Under the pieces are notes generated by a model. The model was not told the origin of the DNA. It saw nothing but the letters and a program-made list of their open reading frames with translations, and did no database searches. 64,000 nt of DNA from Microbacteriaceae bacterium. GTDB taxonomy: Bacteria > Actinomycetota > Actinomycetes > Actinomycetales > Microbacteriaceae. Within the stretch, counting starts at the first letter, position 1. Each line of letters begins with the position of its first letter. The stretch lies in the NCBI GenBank assembly GCA_027487865.1, contig JAIYCT010000002.1:1-64000 (forward strand). Direction: 5' to 3'. Positions 1,520-48,240 of this stretch are shown piece after piece. A program made the translations under genes and the position numbers.

Positions 1520-1592
1520 GCGTTTGTAGCTCAACGGATAGAGCATCTGACTACGGATCAGAAGGTTGGGGGTTCGAGTCCCTCCAAGCGCA
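1520..1592 (+). tRNA. tRNA-Arg (anticodon ACG), copy 1
   Basis: The 73-nt sequence folds as a cloverleaf: acceptor GCGTTTG/CAAGCGC with one G-U pair, D-arm GCTC/GAGC, anticodon loop CTACGGA with ACG at its centre, T-loop TTCGAGT and discriminator A. CCA is not encoded. It is identical over all 73 nt to the copy at 45921-45993. Its 3' half is repeated at 16070-16112 and 48160-48201, marking it as an integration site. An insertion sequence begins 8 bp after its 3' end, where a terminator would normally be. Confidence 0.97.
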
Positions 1593-1600
1593 CTGTGTGA

Positions 1601-2849
1601 TGTCTCGGGACATGCTTCATGCATGTCTCGGGACATTATTCATTTAATGGCCTTGTTGTTTTGGCCAGTAGCTGTGGTTGTCGTCGATGATGTGGGTGGT
1701 TAGGACTTCGCCTGTTGTGGCGTGTGTGACGGTTGCGACGAATTCGTCGATTAGGACCATGACGGGTATTTTTGCGTGGACTATTCCAAGTCCCAGGTGG
1801 TGCATTTTTCCGGCTCTGCGGATGCTGATTTTTCCGAATTTGTCGACGTTATCGAATCTGACTCTGTAGTGTTCGGTGATTGTGTTGCCTTCTGGTTTTG
1901 CTTTGATGGTTGCGTTGTAGGCGTGTTGGGGTGTTTTCAGGCCGATGGCTTTGTGGGGTCTTTGGGTGTTGTAGATGTTTGTGAAGTCGTTTAGTTGTTG
2001 TTGTAGTTCTTGGATGGTGTTGCAGCGGACTTGTTGACTAAGCCAACGCTTTTGGGTTTGGTGAAATCTTTCGATTTTTCCTTGTGTTTGTGGGTGTCCT
2101 GGTGATCCGTTCTTTTGTTTGATTCCGAGTGTGCGAAGCAGGTATTCGAATTGGTTTCTTCCTTTGACGAATCTTGCTGTGTAAACGCTGCCGTTGTCGG
2201 TAAGGGTTGATTGCAGGAAGCCGTATTGGTTGGTGCATTCTTTGAAGGTTTCAACAACATCAACGCCGGTTACTGGTTTGAATGCTTTGCAGCTGAGTAG
2301 GAATCTGCTGTGGTCATCTAACCAGTTGAGTATTTCGATGTCTGTGCCATCGGCTAGGCGCCAGTGGGTGAAATCTGATTGCCAGGTTTCGTTTGGTTGC
2401 AGGGCTTCAAAGCGTTGGATGTAGGCTCTTGGTTTCTTTTTGGGTTGTGGTTGGACCAGCCCTGCGTTTTTGAGGATTCGCCAAATGGTTGAGATTGCTG
2501 GTGGCTGGATGCCTTGTTGGTTTAGGTGCCATGCGATTGTTGTGGCGCCCGCGTCGAGTCCTTGGGTGATCAGGGAAATTCGCAGGTCTTTGATTAGTTC
2601 GGCGGTTTCTGGCCCGGTTTGGTGTGGGTTGGTTTTGGGTCTTTTCGACTCAGGTTCCAGGCCTTCAAGGCCGTTTTGCCGGTATTTGCGCAGCAGGGCG
2701 TAAACCCAACGTTCTGAGACCCCGTATTTTCGGGCTACTTCTCGAATTGACTGGTTTTGGTGGGTTACAGAGAGCACAATTACGCGGTTTTTAGACATAT
2801 TTCATACTGAACGATGTCGCGAGACATCACTGCACTATGTCGTGAAACA
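1601..2849 (-). mobile_element. IS481-family insertion sequence
   Basis: A 1.25-kb element with one transposase gene. Each end carries two copies of a 13-bp word of the form TGTYTCRSGACAT spaced 10 bp apart: 1601-1613 and 1624-1636 at the left, and their inverted counterparts 2814-2826 and 2837-2849 at the right. The two ends are therefore inverted repeats built from a doubled binding site. No clear target duplication is visible next to either end, so the outer boundaries are inferred from the repeats. Confidence 0.8.
1644..2798 (-). CDS. IS481-family transposase
   Basis: This 384-residue protein starts with a helix-turn-helix (REVARKYGVSERWVYALLRKY) and a second HTH_32-like segment. An rve integrase core follows with a DDE triad: Asp in WQSDFTHW, Asp in LTDNGSVYT, Glu in KIERFHQTQ. 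It ends with a beta-rich tail, as is usual for IS481 enzymes. It catalyses cut and strand transfer at the element's terminal repeats. The frame is intact and full length, so the element may still be active. Confidence 0.93.
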   Translation of the reverse strand: MSKNRVIVLSVTHQNQSIREVARKYGVSERWVYALLRKYRQNGLEGLEPESKRPKTNPHQTGPETAELIKDLRISLITQGLDAGATTIAWHLNQQGIQPPAISTIWRILKNAGLVQPQPKKKPRAYIQRFEALQPNETWQSDFTHWRLADGTDIEILNWLDDHSRFLLSCKAFKPVTGVDVVETFKECTNQYGFLQSTLTDNGSVYTARFVKGRNQFEYLLRTLGIKQKNGSPGHPQTQGKIERFHQTQKRWLSQQVRCNTIQELQQQLNDFTNIYNTQRPHKAIGLKTPQHAYNATIKAKPEGNTITEHYRVRFDNVDKFGKISIRRAGKMHHLGLGIVHAKIPVMVLIDEFVATVTHATTGEVLTTHIIDDNHSYWPKQQGH

Positions 2850-2853
2850 GAAC

Positions 2854-2872
2854 AAACCTGTAGCAGGTGCAC
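2854..2872. repeat. Left 19-bp direct repeat of the GC-rich island
   Basis: AAACCTGTAGCAGGTGCAC recurs at 11773-11791 with a single difference and in the same orientation. The two copies bracket the GC-rich segment, as att sites of an integrated element would. The left copy begins 5 bp after the right end of the insertion sequence. Confidence 0.6.
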
Positions 2873-2988
2873 TGCTATTCCGTTCGGATGTACCGTTCGG
2901 GTGTTCGGTTCGGTAGGCCGTGCGGGCTTTCATAATGCGGGTCGGGGCAGGGCCCGAACTCATGCCGCCGCGATTTTTGGTCTGTCAT

Positions 2989-3010
2989 TAGTACACGTTC
3001 TGATGTACTA
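2989..3010 (+). promoter_or_regulatory. Palindromic operator of the CmtR-type repressor
   Basis: TAGTACA-N8-TGTACTA is a perfect 7-bp inverted repeat that ends 7 bp before the cmtR start codon. ArsR/SmtB-family metal sensors bind such palindromes over their own promoter and are released by metal, so autoregulation of the cmtR-efflux operon is inferred. Confidence 0.65.
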
Positions 3011-3017
3011 TGAGGGC

Positions 3018-3362
3018 ATGACCACTTCGACTGCTGTTCGACTTGACGCGATTCGTCGGGTCGGCAAAACCCTCGCCGACCCGACGCGTGCCGCCATCCT
3101 CTTGGCGCTCCTTGATGGGTCTCGCTACCCGGCGGAGCTGGTGGACGAGCTGGGCATAAAGAAGCAGAGCGTGTCGAATCACCTCGCCTGCCTTCGCGAT
3201 TGCGGCATCGTGGTTGCAGAGCCGTCCGGTCGACGAGTTCTCTACGAGATTTCGGATGCGCGGCTGCGTCATGCGCTCCAGGATCTAGTGGGCGTCCTCC
3301 TCGCTGTTGATCCGGTGGATGCGTGCGACGTGAACTCACCGGATCCGGGGGCACGCGCATGA
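3018..3362 (+). CDS. cmtR: ArsR-family Cd(II)/Pb(II) sensor, CmtR-like
   Basis: A 114-residue winged-helix repressor (DPTR in helix 1, HTH around residues 40-64). It closely resembles mycobacterial CmtR, with the three cysteines that bind Cd/Pb in that protein at equivalent places: Cys58 and Cys62 in LACLRDCG and Cys103 near the C-terminus. I chose the ATG at 3018 because it matches the CmtR N-terminus; the frame extends upstream into the insertion sequence without homology. It overlaps the next gene by ATGA and should repress the two efflux genes that follow until metal binds. Confidence 0.9.
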   Translation: MTTSTAVRLDAIRRVGKTLADPTRAAILLALLDGSRYPAELVDELGIKKQSVSNHLACLRDCGIVVAEPSGRRVLYEISDARLRHALQDLVGVLLAVDPVDACDVNSPDPGARA

Positions 3363-4051
3363 CGGCCGCGGTGAGAACCACACCTGACGCGAGCCGCACC
3401 GCTCTGCTGCGGCGACGAGTGAAGATCATCGTTGCCGTCACCATCGGGTACAACGTGATCGAAGGCATCATCGCCCTCATTGCCGGCAGCGCCGCGGACT
3501 CGGCTGCGCTCATCGGTTTCGGGCTCGACTCTGGCGTGGAGGTGCTTTCGGCGACTGCCGTTGCTTGGCAGTTCACGCGTCGCGACCCGGAGCGATTTGA
3601 GAAGCCGGTGCTTCGCGTGATCGCGTTCGCCTTTTTCGTTCTCGCCGCCTACACGATCGTGGGCTCCACCCTCTCGTTGACCGGGGTGACGACTCCCGAA
3701 TCCAGCAACGTCGGCATCGTGCTCGCTGCCGTCAGCGTCGTCGTCATGCCCTTCCTCTCGGTTCTTGAACGACGCACCGGTCGAGAACTCGGCTCCGCCA
3801 CTGTGGTGGCTGATTCCAAGCAGACCCTCATCTGCTCGTTGCTCTCGGCGGCGGTCTTGCTCGGCCTCGTCGCGAACGCCGCGTTCGGATGGACCTGGGC
3901 CGATGCGCTCGCCGCCCTCGTGATCGGAGCCTTCGCCATTCGAGAAGGCATCGAAGCGTGGAACGGTGACACCTGCGCTACCGCGATCGGCGAACTCATG
4001 GAAGGCTCCACCACCCACGACCACGACCACGATGAGGAAAGCCACCCGTGA
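3359..4051 (+). CDS. Cation diffusion facilitator-like membrane protein
   Basis: 230 residues with about six hydrophobic segments arranged as in CDF proteins, an acidic residue in TM2 (GLDSGVEV), one in the TM5 region (ADSKQT), and a His/Asp-rich C-terminal tail (HDHDHDEESH) that could bind metal. It lacks the long cytoplasmic domain of classical CDF exporters. It starts at the ATG overlapping the cmtR stop (ATGA) and its stop overlaps the next start (GTGA), so it is translationally coupled to both. Likely role: efflux of Cd/Zn/Pb under CmtR control. Confidence 0.8.
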   Translation: MTAAVRTTPDASRTALLRRRVKIIVAVTIGYNVIEGIIALIAGSAADSAALIGFGLDSGVEVLSATAVAWQFTRRDPERFEKPVLRVIAFAFFVLAAYTIVGSTLSLTGVTTPESSNVGIVLAAVSVVVMPFLSVLERRTGRELGSATVVADSKQTLICSLLSAAVLLGLVANAAFGWTWADALAALVIGAFAIREGIEAWNGDTCATAIGELMEGSTTHDHDHDEESHP

Positions 4052-4959
4052 GCGCCGACGGGCACACTCATGCCGGCGGCACGATTAATCGTCGGCGCCT
4101 CGCGATCGCTTTTGGCCTTACTGCCACCGTTCTCGTCGCTGAGGTGATTGGGGCGATCATCACCGGGTCGCTTGCTCTGCTCGTGGATGCGGCCCACATG
4201 CTGACCGATGCGGGTGGGCTGCTCGTTGCGTTGTTTGCGGCCAAGCTCATGGAACGACCCGCAACATCACGCCGCACCTGGGGTCTTCGTCGTGCGGAGG
4301 TGCTCGCTGCCACCGTGCAGGCTGCCGTGCTGCTGGGCGTGGGCGTGTTCGTGGTCATCGAAGCTGTGCAGCGATTCAGTCAACCGGCAGAGATTGCCAG
4401 CGTCGAGCTCCTCGTCTTCGGCATCGTCGGCCTCCTGGCCAACATCATCGCGATCATGGTCCTGTCGGGCGGTCGCGGTGACAACCTCAACATGCGGGCC
4501 GCGTTCCTCGAAGTGCTCAACGATGCACTCGGGTCGGTGGCTGTCATCGTCGCTGCCGTCGTCATCATGACGACGGGGTTCCAGCAGGCCGACTCGATCG
4601 CTGCGTTGCTGGTCGGGGTGCTCATCATTCCGCGCACGTTGCGCCTGCTCCGGGACGCCGTCGATGTGCTGCTCGAGTCAGTACCGCGCGGCATCGACCT
4701 CGCCGATGTGCGACAGCACCTGCTGGATGAGGATCATGTTGTCGACGTTCATGACTTGCACATCACGCAGATTGCTACTGGTCTGCCCGTACTGACTGCC
4801 CACGTTGTCGTAGAGGCAGGTTGCTTCCACGACGGCCACGCACCCGAAATCACACAAGCGCTGCAGCGCTGTGCCGCCGAGCACTTCCCGGTCGCGATCG
4901 ACCATGCAACATTCCAGCTCGAACCAGCAGGAGCGGCCCAGGCGCACGACATGCACTGA
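4048..4959 (+). CDS. czcD: Cation diffusion facilitator, CzcD/ZitB type
   Basis: A 303-residue CDF exporter with six transmembrane segments. The metal site is visible as HMLTD in TM2 and EVLND in TM5, and a cytoplasmic ferredoxin-like domain runs from about residue 205. His-rich ends (HTHAGG, AQAHDMH) fit Zn/Cd binding. It swaps cytoplasmic divalent metal for protons. The GTG start is inside the preceding stop codon. It is the third gene of the cmtR operon. Confidence 0.9.
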   Translation: MSADGHTHAGGTINRRRLAIAFGLTATVLVAEVIGAIITGSLALLVDAAHMLTDAGGLLVALFAAKLMERPATSRRTWGLRRAEVLAATVQAAVLLGVGVFVVIEAVQRFSQPAEIASVELLVFGIVGLLANIIAIMVLSGGRGDNLNMRAAFLEVLNDALGSVAVIVAAVVIMTTGFQQADSIAALLVGVLIIPRTLRLLRDAVDVLLESVPRGIDLADVRQHLLDEDHVVDVHDLHITQIATGLPVLTAHVVVEAGCFHDGHAPEITQALQRCAAEHFPVAIDHATFQLEPAGAAQAHDMH

Positions 4960-5054
4960 CAGACCCGATATCGCGCACCCGTCACCCCTGTTTATCCGTG
5001 CGCGCGGAATTCAATTCATTTACTTCTCTAGAATTGCGAGTTGAAATAGCGCTA

Positions 5055-6143
5055 ATGATTCACGATTACGAAGTTGTCATTATCGGGGGAGGTCAGGCAG
5101 GGCTCGCCGCCGGCCGTCACGCCCAGTCGCAGGGACTGAACTACATCATTCTGGAAGCGAGCAACGCTGTCGGGAATGCGTGGCGTGAAAGGTACGACAG
5201 CCTGACGCTCTTCACCCCACGATCGTTTAGTGGCCTCCCTGACCTTCCTTTCTCCGGCGACCAGGATGGGTACCCGACCAGGGACGAGGTCGTGGATTAT
5301 CTGCAGCACTACGTCAAGAGCTTCGACCTCAATGTCGTACTTGATCAGCCAGTGCGCAAGGTCACGAAAGATGGCGAACTGTTCACCGTCGCGACGAAGT
5401 CGGCAACCTACGCCGCACCGGCCGTCGTGGTTGCCACCGGCCCTTTCCAGTCACCTCGAGTACCGGCATGGGCTTTACCAACCGACGGCGTACGGCAGCT
5501 GCACAGCTCGGCCTACCGAAACCCCGCGCAGATCCAGGGGAAGAGAGTGCTTGTCGTGGGTGGTGGAAACTCCGGAGCTCAGATTGCAGAGGAGCTGGCC
5601 GCTGAGTACGAGGTCGATATGGCCGTCAATGCACCAATGCGGTTCATGCCCGCGAAGATACTCGGCGAGAGTTTGTTCTGGTGGCTCGACGCACTGGGCG
5701 TCCTCAACGCCCCCTCTGACAGCTTCAAGGCCACGATGCTTCGACGACGGGGAGACCCAGTCATCGGCACATCTCTCCGGCGCCTCCTTCAGCGCGGTGC
5801 CGTCAAGCTGAAACCTGCGGCGATGTCCATGACTGATGGAACGGTGTTCTTCGCTGACAAGACGAGTGGACGGTACGACACGATCATCTACTGCACCGGC
5901 TATACCGCTGACTACGGGTGGATGCAGATCCCGGACGCTCTCGGTCAGAACGGCATGCCCTCACACAAGGGTGGACAGTCCAAAACCGTCAGCGGGCTGT
6001 GCTTCCTCGGCTTGGGATGGCTTCGTTCACGAAACTCTGCCCTCATTGGTGGCGTCGGCACCGATGCAAAGATCATCATCGATCGGATCGCCGGCAGCGC
6101 TAAGACCGCCGCTGCGCGCGACACTTCGGACGCACGCAGATGA
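5055..6143 (+). CDS. CzcO-like flavin-dependent monooxygenase/oxidoreductase
   Basis: 362 residues with an N-terminal FAD Rossmann motif (IIGGGQAGLAAG, residues 8-19), a flavin-monooxygenase-type NAD(P)H-binding motif near the middle (VVGGGNSGAQIAEE) and a late ATG motif (YCTGYTADY). This family is often found beside czcD in metal-resistance clusters, but its substrate is not established. The frame is open further upstream, but homology begins at the ATG at 5055. The 95-bp gap after czcD could hold a second promoter. The stop overlaps the next ATG (ATGA). Confidence 0.8.
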   Translation: MIHDYEVVIIGGGQAGLAAGRHAQSQGLNYIILEASNAVGNAWRERYDSLTLFTPRSFSGLPDLPFSGDQDGYPTRDEVVDYLQHYVKSFDLNVVLDQPVRKVTKDGELFTVATKSATYAAPAVVVATGPFQSPRVPAWALPTDGVRQLHSSAYRNPAQIQGKRVLVVGGGNSGAQIAEELAAEYEVDMAVNAPMRFMPAKILGESLFWWLDALGVLNAPSDSFKATMLRRRGDPVIGTSLRRLLQRGAVKLKPAAMSMTDGTVFFADKTSGRYDTIIYCTGYTADYGWMQIPDALGQNGMPSHKGGQSKTVSGLCFLGLGWLRSRNSALIGGVGTDAKIIIDRIAGSAKTAAARDTSDARR

Positions 6144-6595
6144 AGGTCCACGTTTCCACCTTCCTCAACGCGAGCCCCACCACGGTGTGGAGCACGGTCA
6201 AGCGCAAAGAGTTGCTTCATTACGTCATCGCACCGATGGGCAAGTTCTCGCCCCTCGATGGGATAACCCGAGGCGCCTGGATCTCCGGAACGGCGTATGA
6301 CGGCCGAAGCTTCATGTTCTCGATCATCCCGGTGGGGACCAGGACAATCCTCATCGAGAGCGCCGATGACCGCTCGATGACAATTCAGTCACGTGAGCAT
6401 GGTGAGATCGGGTTGAAGAAGTGGGACCACCTGATCGCGGTCAAGCCAGAGGGCGACGGCTCGCGCTACTCCGACACGATTGAGATCGACGCTGGTGTAT
6501 TCACGCTTCTGTATTGGTGTTACGCAGAGATGTTCTATCGGCATCGTCAGCGCAAGTGGAGGAAGCTCGTCCGGCACGACTTCGCCGGCCTGTGA
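6140..6595 (+). CDS. SRPBCC (START/Bet v 1-fold) protein
   Basis: 151 residues. The N-terminus (STFLNASPTTVWSTVKR) is the first strand and helix of polyketide-cyclase/START-like folds, which bind hydrophobic ligands. It is coupled to the flavoprotein gene by an ATGA overlap, so the two may act on the same molecule. Parts of its C-terminal half reappear in damaged form in the pseudogene that follows. Ligand unknown. Confidence 0.7.
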   Translation: MKVHVSTFLNASPTTVWSTVKRKELLHYVIAPMGKFSPLDGITRGAWISGTAYDGRSFMFSIIPVGTRTILIESADDRSMTIQSREHGEIGLKKWDHLIAVKPEGDGSRYSDTIEIDAGVFTLLYWCYAEMFYRHRQRKWRKLVRHDFAGL

Positions 6596-7094
6596 ACAGC
6601 CCAAGTCGCGAAGGCTTGCACGACATGAGCTCGTCATCTAATGAAGTGCGGACTGAGCCAGGGCGGATCCAAACGCCGTGCCAACGTAAGCTTTCGAGCG
6701 CGAGCTTCGGATGCCCAGACGTCCGCTTCGCTGAGACCGGCTATCAGGAGCGCGGCGCAGACTTGCTCGCGAAGGCAACCGATCTAGGAGCAGTATGAGT
6801 GCCCGCACCAGCCGACCTACCCGCCGCCTCGTCGTCGCCATCGCGATCGCGAGCGCCGTCGTCCTGACCGGATGCACTGCCAACGAGGACCTCGCCGAAC
6901 AGTATCGCTCGGAAAGAAATAGGAGAGGTCGAAGCTTCATGTACACGATCATCTTCGTGGGGACCAGGACGATCTTCATCGAATGTCAAGAAACGGTGTT
7001 CCACCAAGGGGATCGTCAGCGTTGCTGGAGGAGCCTTGGCAAGAGTGACTTCCGCGATCTGCTCACTATCGATCATGGTCCGACACGCGAATGA
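6596..7094 (+). pseudogene. Decayed remnants: TlpA-type lipoprotein start fused to SRPBCC fragments
   Basis: No intact gene is seen here. At 6795 a typical lipoprotein start (Arg/Lys-rich N-terminus, VVLTGC lipobox, then NEDLAEQYRS) looks like the start of a TlpA/ResA thioredoxin. After about 37 residues it runs into fragments that copy the preceding SRPBCC protein (GRSFMYTIIFVGTRTIFIE against GRSFMFSIIPVGTRTILIE; RQRCWRSL against RQRKWRKL). Just upstream, a frame ending at 6798 (GYQERGADLLAKATDLGAV) could be the tail of the gene that usually precedes tlpA. A short chimeric open frame of 99 codons remains at 6795-7094. Confidence 0.6.
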
Positions 7095-7413
7095 CAAGAC
7101 CAGCGACGATGAACCCGGCGGCAGCCGCGTACTGCAACGGGAGCCAGACCGCATCCGCGAGTGCGAGCGGAATCACCGGGTTCCACACCACTGCGATCGC
7201 GGCCGGAAGTGGCAACCACCACCACTGGCGCGACTGGACCGCAAACCATCCGATAATGAGCGCGAGCACGGCGATCACGAAACTGACGACAAAAAACAGT
7301 TCATTGCCGATGGCGAAGACCCCGACAATAGCTGCGATGGCCCCCAGCAGGCCGGGTGCGAGCGCCATGCGGCGGAGAGGCTCAGGCTCGTTCGCGCGCT
7401 GCGACCGTGTCAT
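7066..7413 (-). CDS. Small four-helix membrane protein (DUF6804-like)
   Basis: 115 residues, mostly hydrophobic, with about four membrane segments and a conserved-looking QWWWLP...WNP stretch found in small actinobacterial membrane proteins of unknown function. Its start overlaps the stop of the ctaG-like gene (7410-7413), so the two are probably co-transcribed. Function unknown. Confidence 0.65.
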   Translation of the reverse strand: MTRSQRANEPEPLRRMALAPGLLGAIAAIVGVFAIGNELFFVVSFVIAVLALIIGWFAVQSRQWWWLPLPAAIAVVWNPVIPLALADAVWLPLQYAAAAGFIVAGLVIRVSDHDR

Positions 7414-8381
7414 CCGGGTTCACCAGCAGGAGAGGAATCTGAGCCACCGCGGCTGCGCAGACGCGCCAGGTACTCGTTGTAGGCGTCGAGGTCGGCATTT
7501 CCGTGCTGGTCTGCGCGAGCATCCGCCGCTGTCGCCTTGTCGGTGTCGTCTCGGAACCATCGATGGAAGATGTACAGCAGTATGAGAACCGTTGGGCCTT
7601 CACCGTATGACCACGCCAGGCCACCTGCCACGCCTTGATCGACGAGAGGGTCGATTCCGAGTGAGGTCGGTGGACTCGCGAAAGCGTCCGTGACAAGCGT
7701 GGGGCTGACCATGAGAAAAACACCGAAGAATGCGTGCAAAGCGACTTCAGCGACGAGGTCTAGAGCGCGTGCAGGATATGACATCCGAATCGGTAGGGGA
7801 TCATCGCTGAGAATCGGGAGAGTGAACACGATGCCCGCCACAAGGAACGCCACTTCGAGAGACACGTGTCCGGCTGGCAGGGCCAGAATCGGGTCGACGA
7901 GCTCGCCGAGGTAAAGCCCATAGAACAACAGAAGAAAAATCGCGACGCTTAGCACCGGATGCATCGCCCACCGGGCTGGCCTGCTCCGCAGAATAGAGAG
8001 GAAAGACACGAGCACCACTTTGCCCGCGCCTCGGTGCGGCAAGCTGCGCAGCAACAGGCGCCCGGGCGAGCCGAGCACGAGAAGCGGTGGCACGAGCATC
8101 ATCAATGTCAGCTGCTCGAACATGAACACCGACAGCATCACCTGGCTGTAGTCCTCAAGGGCTGAACCCGTCGTTGCCGCGATCACCGCACATCCGAGAA
8201 CGAAAGATACCGTGCGTGCGACCGACCAACGTCGGCCGCGAGCCCACATTGCGACCGCGCCGATGAGGTACCACACGGCTATCGTCAACGCGGCGATTGG
8301 CAGAGCGAACGATGACGTCGTTGACAGCCCCAGGAACTCGTCGAGCCCGGGTGGTGCCAGCGGAGTCGTCACGTGCATCAT
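7410..8381 (-). CDS. CtaG/caa3-type cytochrome c oxidase assembly protein
   Basis: A multi-pass membrane protein of the Caa3_CtaG family, with about seven to eight hydrophobic segments and family-like stretches MFEQLTLMMLVPPLLVLGSP and HAFFGVFLM. Members are linked to copper insertion into cytochrome oxidase or to copper supply. I chose the ATG at 8381 (MMHVTTPL...), 19 bp after the dsbA-like stop; an earlier ATG at 8444 would overlap that gene by 44 bp. The C-terminus is charged and probably cytoplasmic. Confidence 0.8.
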   Translation of the reverse strand: MMHVTTPLAPPGLDEFLGLSTTSSFALPIAALTIAVWYLIGAVAMWARGRRWSVARTVSFVLGCAVIAATTGSALEDYSQVMLSVFMFEQLTLMMLVPPLLVLGSPGRLLLRSLPHRGAGKVVLVSFLSILRSRPARWAMHPVLSVAIFLLLFYGLYLGELVDPILALPAGHVSLEVAFLVAGIVFTLPILSDDPLPIRMSYPARALDLVAEVALHAFFGVFLMVSPTLVTDAFASPPTSLGIDPLVDQGVAGGLAWSYGEGPTVLILLYIFHRWFRDDTDKATAADARADQHGNADLDAYNEYLARLRSRGGSDSSPAGEPG

Positions 8382-8400
8382 CAGAGTCGTCGCCTGATCG

Positions 8401-9072
8401 TCATCGCTGGAGCTCTGCCTCGATTGCCGCTCGCAAGTCATCAAACGATGTCAGCTGCACCGGCCGATCGTTGAGGAAGAAGGTCGGGGTCGATTGCACT
8501 CCGAGCGAAACGCCGTCCTCGAAGTCTGCTTTCACCCGCTCAAGTGTCTCGGGTGAAGCCACCGCCAGGTCGTACTCGACCAGGTCGAGTCCGAGCTCGT
8601 CGGCGTACTGGCGGAAGAGATCCGCCTTCGACTCTTGCGATTCGCCCCACTGGGTCTGCGTCTCGTACATACGGGCGAACATCTCTTCAAGTTTGCCCTG
8701 CTGCGCGGCCGCTTCCACTGCGAGCGCTGCGGTTGTCGAGTTGACGTGGCCCGGTAGAGGGAAGTAGCGGAAGGCGAATGTCACTTCGCCCGCGAACTCC
8801 TCGCGAAGCTCTTCGACGACGGGGTAGAAGGCGCCGCATGCCTCGCATTCGAAGTCGAGAAACTCGACGAGGGTCACAGCGCCCTCGCCGGCGTCATCGA
8901 GAATGTGGGTGTCGGGTTGGAGGACAGATTCACTCGGTGTGACCTCGTCGGTGCCGGGCGCCGCGGCGGGAGAGGGCGCTTGCACGATGGCGACGATGAT
9001 GAAGGCGACGACGACGACGATCATGAGGCCTGTCAGCAAGAGGGAGATCTTGACGTTGGTGTTGGTGTTCAC
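8401..9072 (-). CDS. Membrane-anchored DsbA-like thiol oxidoreductase
   Basis: 223 residues from the GTG at 9072, which follows AAGGTTCTTCC; the longer frame to 9156 has no ribosome site. One N-terminal membrane anchor (residues 10-32) is followed by an Ala/Pro linker and a thioredoxin-like domain with active site FECEACGAF (CxxC) and the cis-Pro loop QSTPTFFLN. It should oxidise or isomerise disulfides in exported proteins. A VKOR gene about 660 bp away on the other strand would reoxidise it. Confidence 0.87.
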   Translation of the reverse strand: MNTNTNVKISLLLTGLMIVVVVAFIIVAIVQAPSPAAAPGTDEVTPSESVLQPDTHILDDAGEGAVTLVEFLDFECEACGAFYPVVEELREEFAGEVTFAFRYFPLPGHVNSTTAALAVEAAAQQGKLEEMFARMYETQTQWGESQESKADLFRQYADELGLDLVEYDLAVASPETLERVKADFEDGVSLGVQSTPTFFLNDRPVQLTSFDDLRAAIEAELQR

Positions 9073-9188
9073 GGAAGAACCTTTCAGAGTATGGAGAGCG
9101 CAAGAAAGAGAGGCGCCGACTTCGACGGCGCGAGAGGAGGGTGCCGCTGGCGTCACGTGATGAGCGACGACGGACGGCCCGGTGGCTC

Positions 9189-9632
9189 TTAAATGCGAAT
9201 GACGCAGAGTGCTAGTCTGTCAGGTCCGTCGATATTGATGCGAAGGCGCGCGGACAGCAGATGCGTTGCGTGCTCGTGTATGCGTCGTCGCGGTGAGCCC
9301 ACAGTAGATCCAGCTCGAAAGATGTGGACAAGCAACACGAGCAGGGCGACGATCGAGCACGTCAGGAGTACCAAGTCACCGGTGGACCACTCATTACTCT
9401 CGCTGGCGGTGCCGGCCGTCGACATCGACAACTCGGTTGTGACGCCACTCGTGTCTCGAACGTCAAAGACCGTCGCAGAGCCGGGGCTAACTGATCCGCC
9501 GATGTTTTTGATGTGGTAGGGTGTCATAGCTCCGATAGCGAACAGGATCCCTGCGACAAAAACCAGAAGCAGGCGACGAGCGAAGACGAAAGCTTCGTGC
9601 GCCGCACGGCGCTCTCCGTTCAAGGCTTCCAC
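9189..9632 (-). CDS. Membrane protein of unknown function
   Basis: 147 residues with two membrane segments (about 18-36 and 86-106), an external Ser/Thr-rich loop between them and an Arg-rich cytoplasmic tail. It lies between the dsbA-like and VKOR genes, facing away from VKOR. I do not recognise the family. The composition is plausible for a real protein. Confidence 0.5.
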   Translation of the reverse strand: MEALNGERRAAHEAFVFARRLLLVFVAGILFAIGAMTPYHIKNIGGSVSPGSATVFDVRDTSGVTTELSMSTAGTASESNEWSTGDLVLLTCSIVALLVLLVHIFRAGSTVGSPRRRIHEHATHLLSARLRINIDGPDRLALCVIRI

Positions 9633-9735
9633 CGCTCTATCGTACCCGTGGACCTTCGAGTCGTCTGCGGAGGGGAAAACCTTAGACTCGAAGCGAGAGG
9701 TGAGGTGGCGAGTGGTCGCGACAAGAGAACCATCG

Positions 9736-10353
9736 ATGGTCGATCTTCAGGCTGATGTTCGTGCCGCGAGCGACGTGCGCTCATGGCTTCCATTGTCAAT
9801 CTTGTTGATCATTGGTGGAGCGATCGGCTGGTTGGCATCGACCGCACTGTTGATCGAGCGGGTTCGTTCTTTGCAGAACCCGCAGGAGGCTCTTGCGTGT
9901 GACATCAGCCCCTTCGTGTCGTGCGGTGCTCTCTTCGACCGTTGGCAGGCATCTCTGCTCGGATTTCCGAACCCTGTTATTGGGGTGGCGGGTTTCGTCG
10001 CCCCGATCGTGGTCGGCCTCGCGTTGCTTGCTGGTGCCAGGTTCGCACCGTGGTTTTGGCGAATCGTAGTTCTGGGGTTGTTCGGTGCGTGGGCCTTTGT
10101 TACGTGGTTGTTCGTGCAGAGCGCGTTCGTCATCGGAGTGCTGTGCCCGTACTGCTTGGTGGTGTGGGCGGCGACAATTCCCCTATGGTGGGCCACCTTG
10201 GTGTTCACCATGGCCAACGAGCAGTGGAGCGGAGGTTCCACGCGCACTATTGGCCTCGCCCTCAAGCCGTATGTGGTGGCCGTCATCGTCGCGAACTACG
10301 CGCTCATCGTCGTGACGATCGTCGTGCGGTTTCCCTACGTTTTCGTGATGTGA
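9736..10353 (+). CDS. Vitamin K epoxide reductase (VKOR) family protein
   Basis: 205 residues from the ATG at 9736. Four to five membrane helices carry the VKOR cysteine pairs: loop cysteines in CDISPFVSC and the active-site pair CPYC, plus the FGNP-like FPNPVIGV turn. In actinobacteria this enzyme replaces DsbB, passing electrons from DsbA-like proteins to quinone. The stop overlaps the next start (GTGA), so it is coupled to the ACR3-like gene. Confidence 0.9.
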   Translation: MVDLQADVRAASDVRSWLPLSILLIIGGAIGWLASTALLIERVRSLQNPQEALACDISPFVSCGALFDRWQASLLGFPNPVIGVAGFVAPIVVGLALLAGARFAPWFWRIVVLGLFGAWAFVTWLFVQSAFVIGVLCPYCLVVWAATIPLWWATLVFTMANEQWSGGSTRTIGLALKPYVVAVIVANYALIVVTIVVRFPYVFVM

Positions 10354-11348
10354 CCACCGTGTCGCTACGCCGCGTGATCTCTTGGTGGGACTCACATCAG
10401 GTCGCGCTCTATCTGCTGGCGATCGTTGTCGGCGGCATCATCGGACTTGTCACGCCGGGAGTCGCGCCAGTCCTCGAGACCGCGACGAACCCGGTGCTTG
10501 CTCTTCTCATCTTCGCGACGTTCCTTGGCGTGCCGATCATCGAGCTCGGCAGGGCCTTTCGTGACTGGAAGTTCCTCAGCACTGTGGTGGTCGTCAACTT
10601 CGTGATCGTTCCGATCGTTGTTTTTGGGCTATCTCGGTTTGTGGAAGATGAGCAAGGGCTGTTTTTCGGACTGCTGCTGGTGCTGCTCACGCCATGCGTC
10701 GACTACGTCATCGTCTTCACTGGTTTAGCCGGGGGCGCGAACGTGCGACTGTTGGCAGCTACGCCATTGCTGATGCTTTTGCAGATCATGCTGCTGCCGT
10801 TTTATCTCCTGGTGATCGCCGGCCCGGACCTCACCGGACTGGTAGAGATCGAGCCTTTCGTCGAGGCGTTCGTCATTCTGATTGTCATTCCGCTCGTCGG
10901 GGCGGCCATCGTGCAAGCCATTGCCCGTCGCTATGCGATCGGTCGCCAAATCGAAGAGGTGATGGCGGCAGCGATGGTACCCCTCATGATGCTGACCCTC
11001 GCCGTGATCATCGGATCTCAAATCGCCGCAGTCGGTAGCGAGGCGCTCACGCTTCTCAGGTTGCTGCCGCTGTACGCGGGTTTCGCGATCATTATGCTCC
11101 TCGTGGGAGTAGGTGCGAGCCGGGTTGCAAAGCTCGACACTCCGGGCACGGGAGCAGTGATCTTCAGTGGTGTGACCCGAAACTCACTTGTCGTACTCCC
11201 GCTTGCCCTCGCGCTCCCCGTAGAGCTGGCTATCGCTCCGCTGGCCGTCGTAACCCAGACGCTGGTCGAACTCGTCGTCATGGTGCTCCTCGTGCGTCTT
11301 GTTCCCAGGCTGACTCGGACGACTCAGAACCACGAGGCCGTGATCTAA
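10350..11348 (+). CDS. ACR3/bile acid:Na+ symporter superfamily efflux protein (arsenic resistance-like)
   Basis: 332 residues with about ten membrane segments. TPCVDYVIVFTGLAGG matches the Cys-containing TM4 motif of ACR3 arsenite permeases, where that Cys is essential, and a Glu in the C-terminal helix region is present. I placed the start at the GTG overlapping the VKOR stop; the frame is open much further upstream but only inside VKOR. Predicted role: arsenite/antimonite export. No arsC or arsenic-type arsR is nearby, so the substrate is uncertain. Confidence 0.75.
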   Translation: MTTVSLRRVISWWDSHQVALYLLAIVVGGIIGLVTPGVAPVLETATNPVLALLIFATFLGVPIIELGRAFRDWKFLSTVVVVNFVIVPIVVFGLSRFVEDEQGLFFGLLLVLLTPCVDYVIVFTGLAGGANVRLLAATPLLMLLQIMLLPFYLLVIAGPDLTGLVEIEPFVEAFVILIVIPLVGAAIVQAIARRYAIGRQIEEVMAAAMVPLMMLTLAVIIGSQIAAVGSEALTLLRLLPLYAGFAIIMLLVGVGASRVAKLDTPGTGAVIFSGVTRNSLVVLPLALALPVELAIAPLAVVTQTLVELVVMVLLVRLVPRLTRTTQNHEAVI

Positions 11349-11371
11349 CTTCGGCTTGAATGCCTCGTCGT

Positions 11372-11812
11372 TCACCGGCCGGGTTGCGGGCGAATCGGAG
11401 CACCGGCTCGCCGAAGCGCAATGAGTACCGTGTGGTTGTCGAACCCCAGCTGCTTGCCGATCGTGATGCTCGAGAGGCCCTCGGCGTACATCCGAACGGT
11501 ACGCTTCACGTCAGCTGGTTTCATGCTGCGTGATATGTCGATGCCCTGGACAGTGAGGATGCGAGAAACCGTCGTGCGGGAAAGGCGGAACTCGGCGGCG
11601 ACCGCTCGAACGTTGCGCACCACGAGGTAGCGTTCCGCCACAGCCTTGGCTTCGTCAGCTCGCAACTGGCGAGCTCGCCGAGGAGCTTCTCGAGTGGCAT
11701 CCTGGTGTTCGCGGGTTCTCGAACGGAAGAGTAGCTCTTGAGGAGTGACGGCCCCGGGTGCGGGGTTCGAGTAAACCTGTAGCAAGTGCACGAAAGCCCG
11801 GTTTCTTCTCAC
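11372..11812 (-). CDS. Helix-turn-helix protein resembling serine-recombinase DNA-binding tails
   Basis: 146 residues with two Hin/resolvase-like HTH units (NVRAVAAEFRLSRTTVSRIL and MYAEGLSSITIGKQLGFD). No catalytic domain is present, so it is either a small regulator or the leftover DNA-binding tail of a recombinase. Its first codons run across the right island repeat (11773-11791) and the terminator, so the true start may lie further in. It sits at the very edge of the GC-rich segment, as mobility genes often do. Confidence 0.5.
   Translation of the reverse strand: MRRNRAFVHLLQVYSNPAPGAVTPQELLFRSRTREHQDATREAPRRARQLRADEAKAVAERYLVVRNVRAVAAEFRLSRTTVSRILTVQGIDISRSMKPADVKRTVRMYAEGLSSITIGKQLGFDNHTVLIALRRAGAPIRPQPGR
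11773..11791. repeat. Right 19-bp direct repeat of the GC-rich island
   Basis: AAACCTGTAGCAAGTGCAC matches 2854-2872 at 18 of 19 positions. The bases just before it (11756-11771) match the tRNA-Arg T-arm at 14 of 16 positions, and CAAGTGCAC resembles the tRNA end CAAGCGCAC. The site may therefore be a scrambled tRNA attachment site. Confidence 0.55.
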
Positions 11813-11828
11813 GAGAACCGGGTTTTTT
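11797..11828 (+). terminator. Intrinsic terminator after the right island repeat
   Basis: CCCGGTT...AACCGGG forms the stem and is followed by TTTTTT. It lies directly after the repeat, in the same relative place as the terminators behind the other tRNA-derived copies. It marks the return to lower-GC DNA. Confidence 0.7.
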
Positions 11829-11933
11829 ACTACCCGGCGCCTCTAACTTAATTACTCGTGAGTCAGAAAAATCTTTTCGACAACTCCATTTACTAGCGTG
11901 CATAGACTAAAGAAGACAGAGTAGAGGAGCAAA

Positions 11934-12146
11934 ATGTCAAAAGTATTAGATCTCAAAATTGAGGGTATGACCTGCGGGCACTGCGAGATGTCGGTGACAA
12001 AAGAACTTGCAAAACTTGCTGGCGCAAAAGACATTAAGGTCACTGCCGCTGACGGAAGCGCACATGTAAGCGTTGACGAGTCAGTAACCACCGATGCAAT
12101 TGCGGCAGCCATTGACGAGGCAGGCTACAAATTAATCTCGAACTAG
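11934..12146 (+). CDS. copZ: CopZ-like copper chaperone
   Basis: A 70-residue single heavy-metal-associated domain with the metal loop GMTCGHC and the ferredoxin-like ending EAGYKLIS. It binds Cu(I) and passes it to CopA. GAGGAG sits 5 bp before the ATG. It ends at 12146, within the bases that would encode the first strand of the metal domain of the following ATPase in another frame (see copA). Confidence 0.93.
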   Translation: MSKVLDLKIEGMTCGHCEMSVTKELAKLAGAKDIKVTAADGSAHVSVDESVTTDAIAAAIDEAGYKLISN

Positions 12147-12157
12147 ATATCGAGGGC

Positions 12158-14230: not shown

Positions 14231-14353
14231 ATTTTCCTAGTAGCCCATTTACCTCAGGGCTTAGCACTCCAGGCAGCCAAGATTCACATCCAGGAAACTC
14301 TCAGATAGCCGAGTTAAGCTTTAGGCAACCAGTTGAACAAAAGGATTCCACAC

Positions 14354-14956
14354 ATGAAGATTCTAAAAATTGTCGCAATCTCGGCCTCAACGGTCCTCGC
14401 TGCGGCCTTGCTTACTGCTTGCACAGTCAACGTTGGCACGAGTGACATGAAGTCCGATTCAGGAATGATGATGGACCATGGCATGATGGGCGATAGTTCA
14501 TCTGAGTTTTCAGGCGAAGACATAATGTTCGCCCAAATGATGATTCCTCACCACCAGCAAGCTGTGGACATTGGCACGCTGGCCGAAACGCGAGCTTCTG
14601 ACCCAGAGGTCAAGGCCTTGGCTGCGAAGATCAAAGGCGAGCAGTCTCCAGAAATAGCCCAAATGAAATCCTGGTTGAGTGCTGCAAACGCACCGATGGA
14701 GATGGACCATGACATGGGTATGGGTGGAATGGATGGAATGCTTGACGCGGCCCAAATGGACGCTCTGACAAATTCCAAGGGCGCCGCTTTTGACAAACTG
14801 TTTCTTGAAGCGATGATTGCCCACCATAAAGGCGCAATTCAAATGGCCAAAATGGTTGTCTCCTCAAAAAATGCGGAAGCAGCAGCTTTGGGTAAAGCAA
14901 TTATTGACTCTCAAACCAAAGAGATCACGCTCATGGAGTCACTCCTAGCGAAGTAG
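14354..14956 (+). CDS. DUF305 lipoprotein
   Basis: 200 residues with a lipoprotein signal peptide (lipobox LLTAC) and a Met/His/Asp-rich linker, followed by two DUF305 repeats whose hallmarks are MMIPHHQQAVDI and MIAHHKGAIQMA. DUF305 is a helical ferritin-like domain frequently encoded with copper genes, and the Met/His-rich segments could bind copper outside the cell. The ATG at 14354 starts the signal peptide; the earlier in-frame ATG at 14333 is less likely. It lies 123 bp after copA. Confidence 0.88.
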   Translation: MKILKIVAISASTVLAAALLTACTVNVGTSDMKSDSGMMMDHGMMGDSSSEFSGEDIMFAQMMIPHHQQAVDIGTLAETRASDPEVKALAAKIKGEQSPEIAQMKSWLSAANAPMEMDHDMGMGGMDGMLDAAQMDALTNSKGAAFDKLFLEAMIAHHKGAIQMAKMVVSSKNAEAAALGKAIIDSQTKEITLMESLLAK

Positions 14957-14982
14957 CAGAGACAAAATCTAAAGGCGTTGAG

Positions 14983-15828: not shown

Positions 15829-15941
15829 GATTCCAAGCGTATCAAGCGCGAAAACATTGGTTCCCTGCACCGTTTGCGTTGCTTTTTAGTCCCGGCCATG
15901 ACGTTTTTCGGCCCAGCCTTTCTCTTACCTGGAGATCCTAG

Positions 15942-15988
15942 GATTCCGTTTAGATTCCGTTCAATGGACGGAAACGGACGGAAACGGG
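15942..15988. repeat. Paired inverted tandem repeats of a TTCCGTTY word
   Basis: GATTCCGTTTA and GATTCCGTTCA lie in tandem (11-bp period). They are followed at once by two tandem GGACGGAAAC words (10-bp period), which are the same word inverted. The spacing of about one helical turn suggests a multi-site protein-binding region. It lies in a 437-bp gene-free stretch (15829-16264), 80 bp before the tRNA-derived repeat. The rest of the stretch shows only a loose TTGACT near 16009. Confidence 0.5.
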
Positions 15989-16069
15989 CATATCTGCAAA
16001 AGGTGGCTTGACTAATAAAATACTGGGGTAAATTGCCACTCAGGCTTCACATAGAGGTATTGCAACATA

Positions 16070-16112
16070 ACTACGGATCAGAAGGTTGGGGGTTCGAGTC
16101 CCTCCAAGCGCA
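16070..16112 (+). repeat. tRNA-Arg 3'-half copy (attachment-site remnant)
   Basis: These 43 bases are identical to the tRNA-Arg sequence from the anticodon loop to the discriminator base. The 5' half is absent, so this is not a functional tRNA. Such a fragment is what site-specific integration into a tRNA leaves at the far end of an island. It separates the copper module from the carbohydrate island. Confidence 0.9.
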
Positions 16113-16115
16113 CCA

Positions 16116-38217: not shown

Positions 38218-38219
38218 CC

Positions 38220-44014: not shown

Positions 44015-44048
44015 GAAAACTCTGCCGAGAACATAGGAGTGGATGTCG

Positions 44049-45884: not shown

Positions 45885-45920
45885 CAAAGCCTCTTCACAA
45901 CGCAAATCTTTTTCAACTAA

Positions 45921-45993
45921 GCGTTTGTAGCTCAACGGATAGAGCATCTGACTACGGATCAGAAGGTTGGGGGTTCGAGTCCCTCCAAGCGCA
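45921..45993 (+). tRNA. tRNA-Arg (anticodon ACG), copy 2
   Basis: Identical over 73 nt to the gene at 1520-1592, with the same cloverleaf and anticodon. The bases before it differ from those before copy 1; the bases after it match those after the fragment at 48160-48201. This is therefore the active left end of the 2.2-kb mini-island as well as the right border of the carbohydrate island. Confidence 0.97.
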
Positions 45994-45998
45994 CTAAA

Positions 45999-46030: not shown

Positions 46031-46262
46031 ACTTTAAGTCGACTGCTCGCTCCAAGGTTTACAGCGGTCAGATCACTGCAACGGCAGAGGTACCTGCATA
46101 ACCTTGTCAATCTGAGACTGGCTCAGGCCGCGATTTGACTTACTTCATTCAACTAAATCCTTCATCTTCGACCAAGGCTTCAGCCCGTCACGTTTGGATT
46201 ATCACAAACTAGAGAAAGCGGTCCGGGAGACAAAGGTGAGCCGGTCCTTCTCCTCCAACCTA

Positions 46263-46309
46263 ACTACGGATCAGAAAGTTGGGGGGTTCAAATCCCCCCG
46301 TCTGCGCCA
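46263..46309 (+). repeat. Degenerate tRNA 3'-half fragment
   Basis: ACTACGGATCAGAAAGTTGG matches tRNA-Arg with one change. The T-arm (GGGGG-GTTCAAAT-CCCCC) and the acceptor end (GTCTGCGCCA) then differ. It looks like the 3' half of a tRNA-Arg allele from another organism. It lies in the 355-bp gene-free stretch 46031-46385, where I see no other feature. Confidence 0.6.
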
Positions 46310-46385
46310 GTTGTTTTCCGAGTCTTTGAACGCGGTTGTTTTTCGTTTCGCCATCCGTTCAGCTAGGCATCCCACCCTCTTTGCC

Positions 46386-48032
46386 ATGAAACGAACTATC
46401 TCTTCTTTATCCTCTGCAGCCCTTGTAATCACCCTGGGTCTTCAACTTCCCGCTAGCGCGGCAACCGAGTTCACCATTACCCAACTCGGTGTCTATGACT
46501 CTCAATCGGGAGCCACTGGTGCGGAAATAGCTTCCTACCACCCAGCCACCAAGCAGGTTTACATAACCAACGGAGCTAGGAATCGCGTTGACATCGTTTC
46601 GATTGCCGATCCAGCAAATCCGAGATTTGTCGGAGACATCAATGTCTCCAATTATGGAGACAACATAAATTCGGTCGCTGTTGGTAAGTATGTGGTGGCA
46701 ATTGCGGTGCACCGCTCGCCAACTTTTGCAGCCGATGGGACTCCCACTCTCCTCAGCGGAAAGCTCGTAATTGCCAGACCATCGGGGAGTGTGATTGGCT
46801 CGATTGACCTGGGCGGATCCCAACCGGATTCGGTAACCTTCACCCCGGACGGCCTCACGGCTTTGGTCGCAATCGAGGGAGAGCCGATATGCGCAAAGGA
46901 TAACGCTGCCACCACTTCGGTAAACGAGTCTCTCGACTATGCACTGGCAAAAGACCCTCGCGGCGCTGTTGCAGTGGTTGATCTTCGTAATCCAAAAACC
47001 GCCAAGGCCAAGCTGGTGGGATTCAGCAAGTTCACCACAGCCGAGGCAAAGAGTCTGGGGCTGGTTGTTTCTCTAACCTCTAAAGATCCCGTCGTTGATT
47101 TTGAGCCTGAATTCGTCTCGCCTGCCAACAACAACTTGGCCTATGTGTCTTTGCAGGAAGCCAATGCCATTGCTGAACTTGACATAAAGAGGGCGACAAT
47201 CACCAAGATTTATTCAGCCGGCACGACTGATTTAAGCAAGACACCTTTTGATCTCTCAGATAGAGATTCAAGCGGTGGACCCTCCACATTCAGCAATGTG
47301 ATTGGTCTTGCGATGCCAGATGCGCTGGCCGCTTTCACAATTGGTAAAGACAATTACTTTGTCAGCGCCAATGAGGGTGATGACAGAGCTGACTGGACCT
47401 GTTTCAAAGCCGTCGACGACAAGCGGGCAAAGGATCTGAAGGTCGATCCAGCTGCGTTTCCTAATTGGTCCTCGGAATCGGCTGACGCTCGCCTGGGAAG
47501 AGCAAAAGTCAATCCGAATATCGGTGATTCGAACGGCGATGGTCTGTATGAGAAAATCCACCTGCTATCGAACCGTTCCTTTTCAATCTTCAAGAATGGA
47601 ACTCGCATTTACGATTCAGGCAACCTCCTTGAGCAGCTACAGATCACAGCGCTGGGGGTCGCAAACATGAACGGCGAGTGGAACACCACCACCGGTGCGT
47701 ATGCCGGTCAGGCGAGATCTGACGATAAGGGTCCCGAGCCAGAGGGTGTGACGGTGGGCATGGTTGGAACATCCAGAATTGCGGTTGTCGGCATGGAGCG
47801 CATGAGTGCCCTGCTGTTTGTTGACATTACTAATCCTGCGGTTCCGACGGTCATAAAGTGGGAGCAGATGCTGCCCTTGAGCACCATTGTTCCTGGCAAA
47901 CCAGGACTCACTTGGTCTCCCGAGGGTCTGGTGTTTGTCAGCGCTAAGGACTCTCCCACTGGCAAGCCACTGGTGTTGACCGCCTATGAAGTCTCCGGGT
48001 CGCTCTCCATTCACCAGATAGAGAAGAATTAA
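46386..48032 (+). CDS. Secreted choice-of-anchor I/alkaline-phosphatase-like propeller protein
   Basis: 548 residues from the ATG at 46386, with a Sec signal peptide cleaved near LPASAA. The mature part is a propeller with repeated blade motifs (QVYITNGARNRVDIVSI, QPDSVTFTPDGLTALVAIEGEP, PEFVSPANNNLAYVSLQEANAIAELDI, PEGVTVGMVGTSRIAVVGMER) as in choice-of-anchor I proteins. Their biochemical role is unclear; some are annotated as phosphatase-like. The upstream frame to 46194 runs through the tRNA fragment and is not coding. Sole gene of the mini-island. Confidence 0.85.
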   Translation: MKRTISSLSSAALVITLGLQLPASAATEFTITQLGVYDSQSGATGAEIASYHPATKQVYITNGARNRVDIVSIADPANPRFVGDINVSNYGDNINSVAVGKYVVAIAVHRSPTFAADGTPTLLSGKLVIARPSGSVIGSIDLGGSQPDSVTFTPDGLTALVAIEGEPICAKDNAATTSVNESLDYALAKDPRGAVAVVDLRNPKTAKAKLVGFSKFTTAEAKSLGLVVSLTSKDPVVDFEPEFVSPANNNLAYVSLQEANAIAELDIKRATITKIYSAGTTDLSKTPFDLSDRDSSGGPSTFSNVIGLAMPDALAAFTIGKDNYFVSANEGDDRADWTCFKAVDDKRAKDLKVDPAAFPNWSSESADARLGRAKVNPNIGDSNGDGLYEKIHLLSNRSFSIFKNGTRIYDSGNLLEQLQITALGVANMNGEWNTTTGAYAGQARSDDKGPEPEGVTVGMVGTSRIAVVGMERMSALLFVDITNPAVPTVIKWEQMLPLSTIVPGKPGLTWSPEGLVFVSAKDSPTGKPLVLTAYEVSGSLSIHQIEKN

Positions 48033-48038
48033 CCAGAA

Positions 48039-48086
48039 AGCCCCCTTCCAAGCCCCAAATGGGGCTTGGAAGGGGGCTTACTTTTT
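48039..48086 (+). terminator. Strong intrinsic terminator
   Basis: A stem of about 18-19 bp (AAGCCCCCTTCCAAGCCCC and its complement) with an AAAT loop is followed by ACTTTTTC. It ends the secreted-protein gene 6 bp upstream and insulates it from the tRNA fragment. Confidence 0.88.
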
Positions 48087-48159
48087 CGCCTAGCCGACTA
48101 GACATTAGGTCGATTTCTTTGTGCTGCTCGTCGTCGATGGCTTTTGCGAGTGCAAGAAT

Positions 48160-48240
48160 CTACGGATCAGAAGGTTGGGGGTTCGAGTCCCTCCAAGCGC
48201 ACTAAACCCTAGAAGCCTTCACGACTTCTCGGGCTTTTAC
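48160..48240 (+). repeat. tRNA-Arg 3'-half plus terminator copy (right end of mini-island)
   Basis: 81 bp match 45952-46032 with three mismatches. The match covers the tRNA from the anticodon loop to the discriminator, the next bases CTAAACCC, and the terminator hairpin, whose stem now has one mismatch. It is probably the original chromosomal end of the tRNA displaced by insertions. Core-type genes begin 86 bp further on. Confidence 0.88.

Follow-up and report, generated by a model that had tools for sequence, protein, structure and literature searches.

The metal cassette described here, 14.5 kb long (positions 1594-16113), probably belongs, as a cargo-only member with no integrase, to a family of elements which insert into the 3' half of the tRNA-Arg(ACG) gene. 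It lies near the start of contig JAIYCT010000002.1 of a Microbacteriaceae bacterium (assembly of 1,465,243 bases in 13 contigs, completeness 99.1%), and the first 64,000 bases of this 468,108-base contig, the whole stretch analysed, are called the window below. The same conserved arm that closes the cassette on its right is also the end of further elements in two genera, the cargo of which is unrelated and some of which carry a tyrosine integrase together with a Prim-Pol/AAA module. Integrase-less tRNA cassettes have been reported in several streamlined aquatic bacteria, mostly without an explanation of their route of movement. With the arm now defined, three integrases as candidates and a matched set of elements that have either two arms or one, the question can be put to the test, and an arm common to integrase-coding mobile elements hints how passenger blocks move in a small-genome bacterium.

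The window contains exactly two RNA genes, both tRNA-Arg(ACG) on the plus strand (ARAGORN; Rfam at the gathering threshold). A BLAST search of the assembly with 121 bp around the first of them gave five places, all on the plus strand, namely two full tRNA-Arg genes, two exact 3'-half copies and one 85% copy:

1520-1593, plus strand, complete tRNA-Arg(ACG) gene no. 1, which bounds the metal cassette on the left (ARAGORN, Rfam)
16070-16113, plus strand, exact 44-bp copy of the tRNA-Arg 3' half, right edge of the metal cassette (BLAST)
45921-45994, plus strand, complete tRNA-Arg(ACG) gene no. 2, with a terminator-like hairpin behind it that extends to about 46035 (ARAGORN, Rfam; alignment)
46260-46309, plus strand, degenerate copy of a tRNA 3' half with a different T-arm and an encoded CCA (BLAST 85% over 46260-46299; alignment)
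48160-48203, plus strand, exact 44-bp copy of the tRNA-Arg 3' half, right edge of a one-gene mini-island, followed by a terminator-like hairpin (BLAST)

An exact match of 44 bp in 1.5 Mb is far beyond chance. A preliminary description, made from the letters of the window, had listed two identical full genes, two exact half copies and one degenerate copy in one direction, with metal/redox genes, copper genes, a sugar island of about 30 kb and a single gene between them; ARAGORN, Rfam and BLAST bear out the former and domain matches the latter.

The metal cassette is a genuine insertion. When the window flanks were joined at the tRNA 3' half, they aligned in one piece with the related genome G014 over 3,080 bp (95.2%, 2 gap openings), and they also spanned the junction in G013 (98.1% over 1,610 bp) and G018 (94.7% over 1,584 bp), so that the cassette is absent from all three relatives readable at that spot. 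The proposal that cassettes lacking their own integrase accumulate at a single tRNA, with presence/absence variation, is supported for the metal cassette and for the mini-island interval, and the locus shows what defines an additive flexible genomic island, namely cassettes which vary at one tRNA and end in repeats of it. The empty site was expected to consist of one tRNA followed directly by the gene at 48327; no such site was found, and that gene is itself accessory in the genus, with two near-full matches (90-94%) and one fragment among the other 21 genomes searched.

The feature which links the cassette to other elements is its right arm:

15943-16070, plus strand, right arm, 128 bp, non-coding, conserved at all 10 aligned loci, either over its full length or over the inner part

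The arm holds a direct pair of GATTCCGTT sites, 11 bp apart, and a near-direct pair of AAYGGACGGA sites, 10 bp apart, and its final block, with the end GCAACATAA, abuts the tRNA 3' half; the repeated sites resemble arm-type integrase sites. Over the ten loci, conservation extends for about 120-128 bp and then similarity stops: the median pairwise identity per 20-bp bin is 0.65-0.90 within the 120 bp nearest the tRNA copy, falls to 0.50 in the next bin (120-140 bp) and is 0.40-0.45 farther out, where the background is about 0.40 because each bin is the best of 13 shifts. Only the inner part is kept in the tenth locus, CANCKM. The arms of the window and of G031, a genome of another genus, are identical at 126 of 127 positions. 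Of 11 elements, 10 have the motif TTCCGTT at -116 from the tRNA copy and 7 have it at -127.

The arm is rare. Of 398 genomes of the family, 5, from 2 of its 85 genera, contain a short arm-end pattern. A longer pattern, searched with two mismatches allowed, gave 9 places in 8 of 35 genomes and, for the sister genus, 8 places in 7 of 67 genomes; with 3 places common to both sets, this makes 14 places in 12 of 92 genomes from two genera, and the reversed pattern used as a control gave no match in either set. At 12 of the 14 places the arm abuts most of the tRNA-Arg 3' half, in some cases with mismatches or short deletions. In G480 it abuts a 51-nt exact copy of the 3' half of tRNA-Tyr, the full gene of which lies 4.8 kb upstream. 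In G017 (L150, reverse complement, about position 1400, contig 15) it abuts just the first 13 nt of the tRNA-Arg half, which is possibly an insertion at a secondary site and would place the crossover near the anticodon. In the collection of named genomes one record was listed, CANCKM010000018.1, which contains a stretch of G474 contig 18.

The left boundary could not be placed at three of the 14 loci (the second copy in G011, G017 and G459), which were set aside, leaving 11 elements with readable content. A tyrosine integrase is present in three of them and absent from eight, which are cargo-only:

Window, 14.5 kb, metals, cargo-only
G002, 3.8 kb, cation efflux, DsbA-like and VKOR proteins (71-81% amino acid identity to those of the window), cargo-only
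G031, 7.4 kb, beta-oxidation, cargo-only
G011, 3.0 kb, AbiE-type toxin-antitoxin, cargo-only
G015, 7.2 kb, response regulator and leucine-rich protein, cargo-only
G245 (L148/L149), 10.4 kb, hemL, hemB, hemC, hemE, hemQ and hemH above cut-offs, cargo-only
G474, second element, 6.4 kb, ABC transporter and two-component genes (one open reading frame (ORF) scanned, others from translations), cargo-only
G480 (L182:9186-14117), at tRNA-Tyr(GTA), 4.8 kb, HTH-TPR protein and reverse transcriptase, cargo-only
G135, 14.1 kb, integrase, Prim-Pol, AAA_25, type I restriction-modification
G483, 13.0 kb, with integrase
G474, first element, with integrase

For the cargo of G031, G011 and G015, 10 ORFs were scanned. 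The integrases of G135, G474 and G483 match PF00589 above the cut-off, and compared with that of G135 the one of G474 is 90% and that of G483 45% identical. A panel of 38 tyrosine recombinases used in tblastn, together with a hidden Markov model (HMM) built from them, detected the integrase in all three integrase elements and gave nothing in the eight cargo-only elements, the metal cassette included. No FtsK-like match was found among 10 ORFs scanned in the G135 element, a larger ORF (L135 9330-10616) lying outside the scan.

Whole traits can be cargo, as the haem genes of G245 illustrate; nine of the ten ORFs listed for its element were scanned, with weaker hemD- and protoporphyrinogen-oxidase-like matches as well. 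The only hemB match of G245 sits in this cassette between tRNA-Arg and arm, along with the greater part of the haem biosynthesis pathway. As side observations, a hemB match is missing in 6 of the 10 genomes of the genus of G245 examined, and the only hemB of G035 lies about 1.4 kb from a tRNA-Arg match.

Two genomes show how cargo and integrase may come together. The order in G474 is integrase element, arm, tRNA half, cargo-only element, arm and tRNA half. The cargo and arm of the second G474 element recur in G483 (99.84% over 6,420 bp, no gaps), fused there to an integrase module different from that of G474; the internal tRNA half is gone, and the hairpin/terminator that comes after it in G474 is still present. 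The flanks of the two loci share only 49 bp, and since the genomes were sampled one per species, G474 and G483 represent different species. We read this as a recent spread of a cargo-only element and its fusion with an adjoining integrase element.

From these sequence comparisons, the arm may be the binding site of the relatives' integrases, and the cargo-only cassettes would be passengers which are recombined in trans when an integrase element shares the cell, or which travel by accretion, in tandem with an integrase element and moving or fusing with it. The movement of the cassette itself would follow the same routes. Mobilisation in trans had been proposed before, and a likely source of the integrase exists in the arm-sharing elements of a sister genus. 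As the window strain now lacks such an integrase, the cassette should be static there. Two PF00589 matches were found in its assembly, proteins of 299 and 296 amino acids on other contigs, both of the size of XerC/XerD and presumably those proteins, and PF00239 (serine recombinase) had no match in it. The earlier remark that no tyrosine integrase is visible thus holds for the whole assembly, itself perhaps slightly incomplete at 99.1%, beyond the two Xer-sized proteins. Of the recombinases named then, the IS481 transposase is confirmed by domain matches, and the helix-turn-helix (HTH) protein without a catalytic domain has weak HTH matches. In genomes of genus g1, whole-genome PF00589 matches also occur outside the arm-ended islands.

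Further candidates for a helper were tried and rejected. At the edge of contig 19 of G017 (L081, reverse complement, 6584-8000) a tyrosine integrase frame stands beside tRNA-Arg; it is not clearly a partner, because its left end has no TTCCGTT pair and the contig ends there. In phages and viral contigs the arm patterns gave nothing and a search with the G135 integrase gave no relative. A looser 16-base pattern matched at least 120 viral stretches, of which 4 of 120 extend by two further arm bases and none has a tRNA part, so the viral matches were treated as chance. Against phage and plasmid records, the G135 integrase had less than 31% identity among the best matches listed.

Several observations weigh against the cassettes being integrase-mobilised passengers. 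The TTCCGTT pair of the left arm, located at +48/+59 after the tRNA in both complete integrase elements (G135 and G483), is found within 150 nt in none of the eight cargo-only elements, which may therefore not be excisable by the integrase, and our confidence is lowered for this reason. The 40 nt after the left and right core are 0.90-0.97 identical in four of the eight (G002, G031, G011 and G015), compared with 0.72-0.75 in the two integrase elements and 0.71 on average between genomes; a left flank of this sort resembles native downstream sequence, which fits homologous recombination too. The left end of the metal cassette is broken by the IS481 copy, with the tRNA intact, and has a lone TTCCGTT at 2878; the 64 kb contain 9 copies of this motif, about as many as chance would give. 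In addition, the second copy in G011 and that in G017 show departures of at least 2 nt or a place away from a full tRNA, and, G474 apart, the genomes that have cargo-only elements yielded no integrase of this family, the best matches being 28-29% (G011 and G015).

Homologous recombination by itself, in which an incoming tRNA-Arg 3' half with terminator and neighbours recombines with the resident copy and the arm is an old relic, draws on the same left ends: the left arm is wanting in all eight cargo-only elements, the native-like left flank of four of them reaches about 100 bp in G031 and includes the 5' part of a tRNA-Pro, and the sugar island has two whole tRNAs. Recombination between tRNA copies, which the preliminary description had offered beside mobilisation in trans, thus gains weight from the missing left arm. 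It does not easily explain a precise junction of arm and core with unrelated cargo in two genera, with the window and G031 differing at 1 of 127 positions, nor the near-identical cargo-only element with different integrase modules in two genomes, nor the arm at tRNA-Tyr, and as the sole explanation it is unlikely. It is quite unlikely that the cargo-only elements are dead remnants, left where an integrase element was inserted and then lost its left half with the integrase, in the manner of a decayed cis-mobilizable element (CIME). Left arm and integrase module are indeed missing together, and tandem decayed elements are common in the literature as excerpted in PMC5704250; however, the integrase elements have their own left terminator (0.97 identical between G135 and G483), which none of the cargo-only left ends compared shows, and the metal genes shared by the window and G002, different genomes with the same arm, are not what decay alone predicts. 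That the tRNA copies are ancestral tandem genes in a vertical gene order without mobility is highly improbable: the sugar island and both full tRNAs are common to three genomes, but most other members of the genus have a single full copy, and the variation at the metal cassette and at the mini-island interval (different DNA in both relatives compared) contradicts it for these two, where gene order and tRNA fragments are not fixed among relatives.

Passengers of integrase elements accordingly remain our favoured account of the cargo-only elements, and a tentative though real possibility goes beyond it, namely that one-armed cargo cassettes are a mobile class of their own, for which the right arm and the tRNA 3' half are enough for several related integrases. 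If so, unrelated cargo (metal resistance, beta-oxidation, the haem pathway, toxin-antitoxin, reverse transcriptase) would cross species and genera by means of integrases encoded elsewhere, and the arm could re-pair with another tRNA core, as with tRNA-Tyr in G480.

Stacks of cassettes at tRNA genes are already known, and the new part is the arm with its integrase partners. The ssrA-specific islands of Dehalococcoides, as excerpted from PMC3146451, form a stack downstream of a single RNA gene, the 3' end of which recurs as direct repeats; some have an integration module, 15 have none, and a short conserved motif stands beside the repeat. They depend on a serine recombinase (DsiB/DsiA), a 20-bp tmRNA repeat and a 15-bp motif, whereas tyrosine integrases, tRNA-Arg, a 128-bp arm and cargo shared at 99.84% with different integrase modules are found here. 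CIMEs, according to the excerpts of PMC5704250, lack integration and transfer genes, have att-like repeats and occur in tandem with integrase elements by accretion. The metal cassette likewise has no integration genes and has retained attR (the 128-bp arm and the exact 44-bp tRNA half), but the definition in those excerpts needs both attL and attR kept, and the left arm is missing in all eight cargo-only elements.

Additive islands bounded by tRNA have been described in 'Ca. Actinomarinales' (PMC7771536), in fGI-2 of Methylopumilus (PMC10872708) and in Alteromonas (PMC4119200), and the likeness lies in variable cassettes with end repeats made of a part of a tRNA; the excerpts also report metal-resistance cassettes in Alteromonas and partial replacement by small cassettes in Actinomarinales. 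The excerpted parts of these three papers mention neither an end sequence that the cassettes have in common beyond the tRNA nor a partner integrase. Tycheposons are tRNA-bordered cargo elements with a tyrosine recombinase, and as excerpted from PMC10872708 and PMC11389934 they are comparable to the elements of G135, G474 and G483; the metal cassette has the tRNA at its border and no tyrosine recombinase within the element. Helper-dependent elements are reviewed in PMC11389934, again as excerpted. Among the titles listed from the open-licence PMC literature, none deals with this arm or with cassettes of this sort in the genera concerned, and the excerpted text of a paper on Aquiluna and Rhodoluna does not contain the word 'island'.

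Integrative and conjugative elements of actinomycetes have an integrase, a replication module and an FtsK-like transfer protein. The metal cassette does not show this combination, and the G135 element has an integrase, Prim-Pol and AAA_25. No transfer genes were among the Pfam matches of the metal-cassette ORFs scanned, a scan that covered neither small ORFs nor an origin of transfer. The content of the cassette, by domain matches unless otherwise given, is as follows:

1598-2829, minus strand, IS481-type insertion sequence with transposase at 1644-2798 (Pfam rve, rve_3, LZ_Tnp_IS481; ends from near-identical inverted termini)
3018-3362, CmtR-like regulator
3323-4051 and 4048-4959, two cation-efflux proteins
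4821-6143, ArsO-like flavoprotein
7410-8444, minus strand, CtaG-like protein
8401-9156, minus strand, thioredoxin/DsbA-like protein
9700-10353, VKOR
10350-11348, SBF/ACR3-like protein
11372-11812, minus strand, small HTH protein that lacks a catalytic domain (HTH_23 at just 25 bits; weak Cbp1-type HTH match)
12158-14230, copper-type P-type ATPase
14333-14956, DUF305 protein
14983-15870, minus strand, F510_1955-family protein

The IS481 copy has probably displaced the terminator which elsewhere comes after the tRNA. The ORF at 7091-7585 (plus strand) is probably on the wrong strand, a gene at 7066-7413 (minus strand) being more likely. An integrase concealed in the gene beside the right end (14983-15870) was considered and ruled out by its family assignment. 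The metal/redox cargo (3018-11348) has a guanine + cytosine (GC) content of 61% and the copper-type cargo (12158-15870) one of about 52%. In-frame queries from 3020-3362 and 5053-6143 had no match in the relatives. The metal genes matched 159 plasmid records, none covering 80% of the query; the best plasmid match listed is 69% over 19%, and actinobacterial plasmids with similar gene names are among them.

The other two intervals between tRNA copies differ from the metal cassette:

16113-45920, sugar-catabolism island, about 30 kb, 54% GC, older layer (domain matches; comparison with relatives)
46389-48032, plus strand, the only gene of the mini-island, coding for a secreted-type protein of the choice-of-anchor I family (NCBIfam NF038117 above cut-off)

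The sugar island is bounded by two full tRNAs in the window genome (G000), G013 and G018, with amino acid identities of 94-100%, and its first four genes are present in G014 before the contig ends. Its last gene, searched in 25 whole genomes, has matches of 97-100% only in G000, G013 and G018 and is at most 26% identical or absent in the remaining ones; the missing match in G014 may reflect the 50% completeness of that genome. The sequence before tRNA no. 1 and the hairpin after tRNA no. 2 resemble the surroundings of the single tRNA in relatives of the genus, from which we infer that the island entered a single tRNA and duplicated it whole. It is the oldest layer, and duplication of a whole tRNA is not produced by simple integration into a 3' half. 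The island would have entered earlier, in the ancestor of G000, G013 and G018 (probably also G014), and the full tRNA at each end is best explained by homologous recombination of DNA with a whole tRNA-Arg gene. No recognisable attachment arm of the metal-cassette kind was found at the sugar island or at the right edge of the mini-island. Of the earlier picture of one kind of stacked cassette, the stacking therefore stands and the uniformity does not, the metal cassette alone among the three intervals having such an arm.

Further to the right, a stretch of about 9.6 kb with a ROK regulator and sugar ABC genes (window 51882-61486) has no counterpart in G013 and G018; in these genomes the genes at 50698 and 61803 stand close to each other, and no tRNA repeat was found there.

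The mini-island interval (window 46036-48266) holds other DNA in both relatives compared, 2.7 kb in G013 and about 9.1 kb in G018, the latter with a poor tRNA half (10 mismatches) about 1 kb in. Its repeat pair is longer than the tRNA half, 91 bp at 93% with the terminator-like hairpin included, and the mini-island is probably a similar insertion of a kind with an unrecognised arm. The degenerate copy at 46260-46309 has no match to the Rfam tRNA family; its different T-arm and encoded CCA suggest that it is possibly the 3' half of a foreign tRNA, perhaps derived from a phage or a distant host. Finally, G002 (L094:7223-10019) has a relative of the mini-island gene (58-61%) which is followed after about 1 kb by part of a tRNA-Arg, at a place separate from the tRNA gene.

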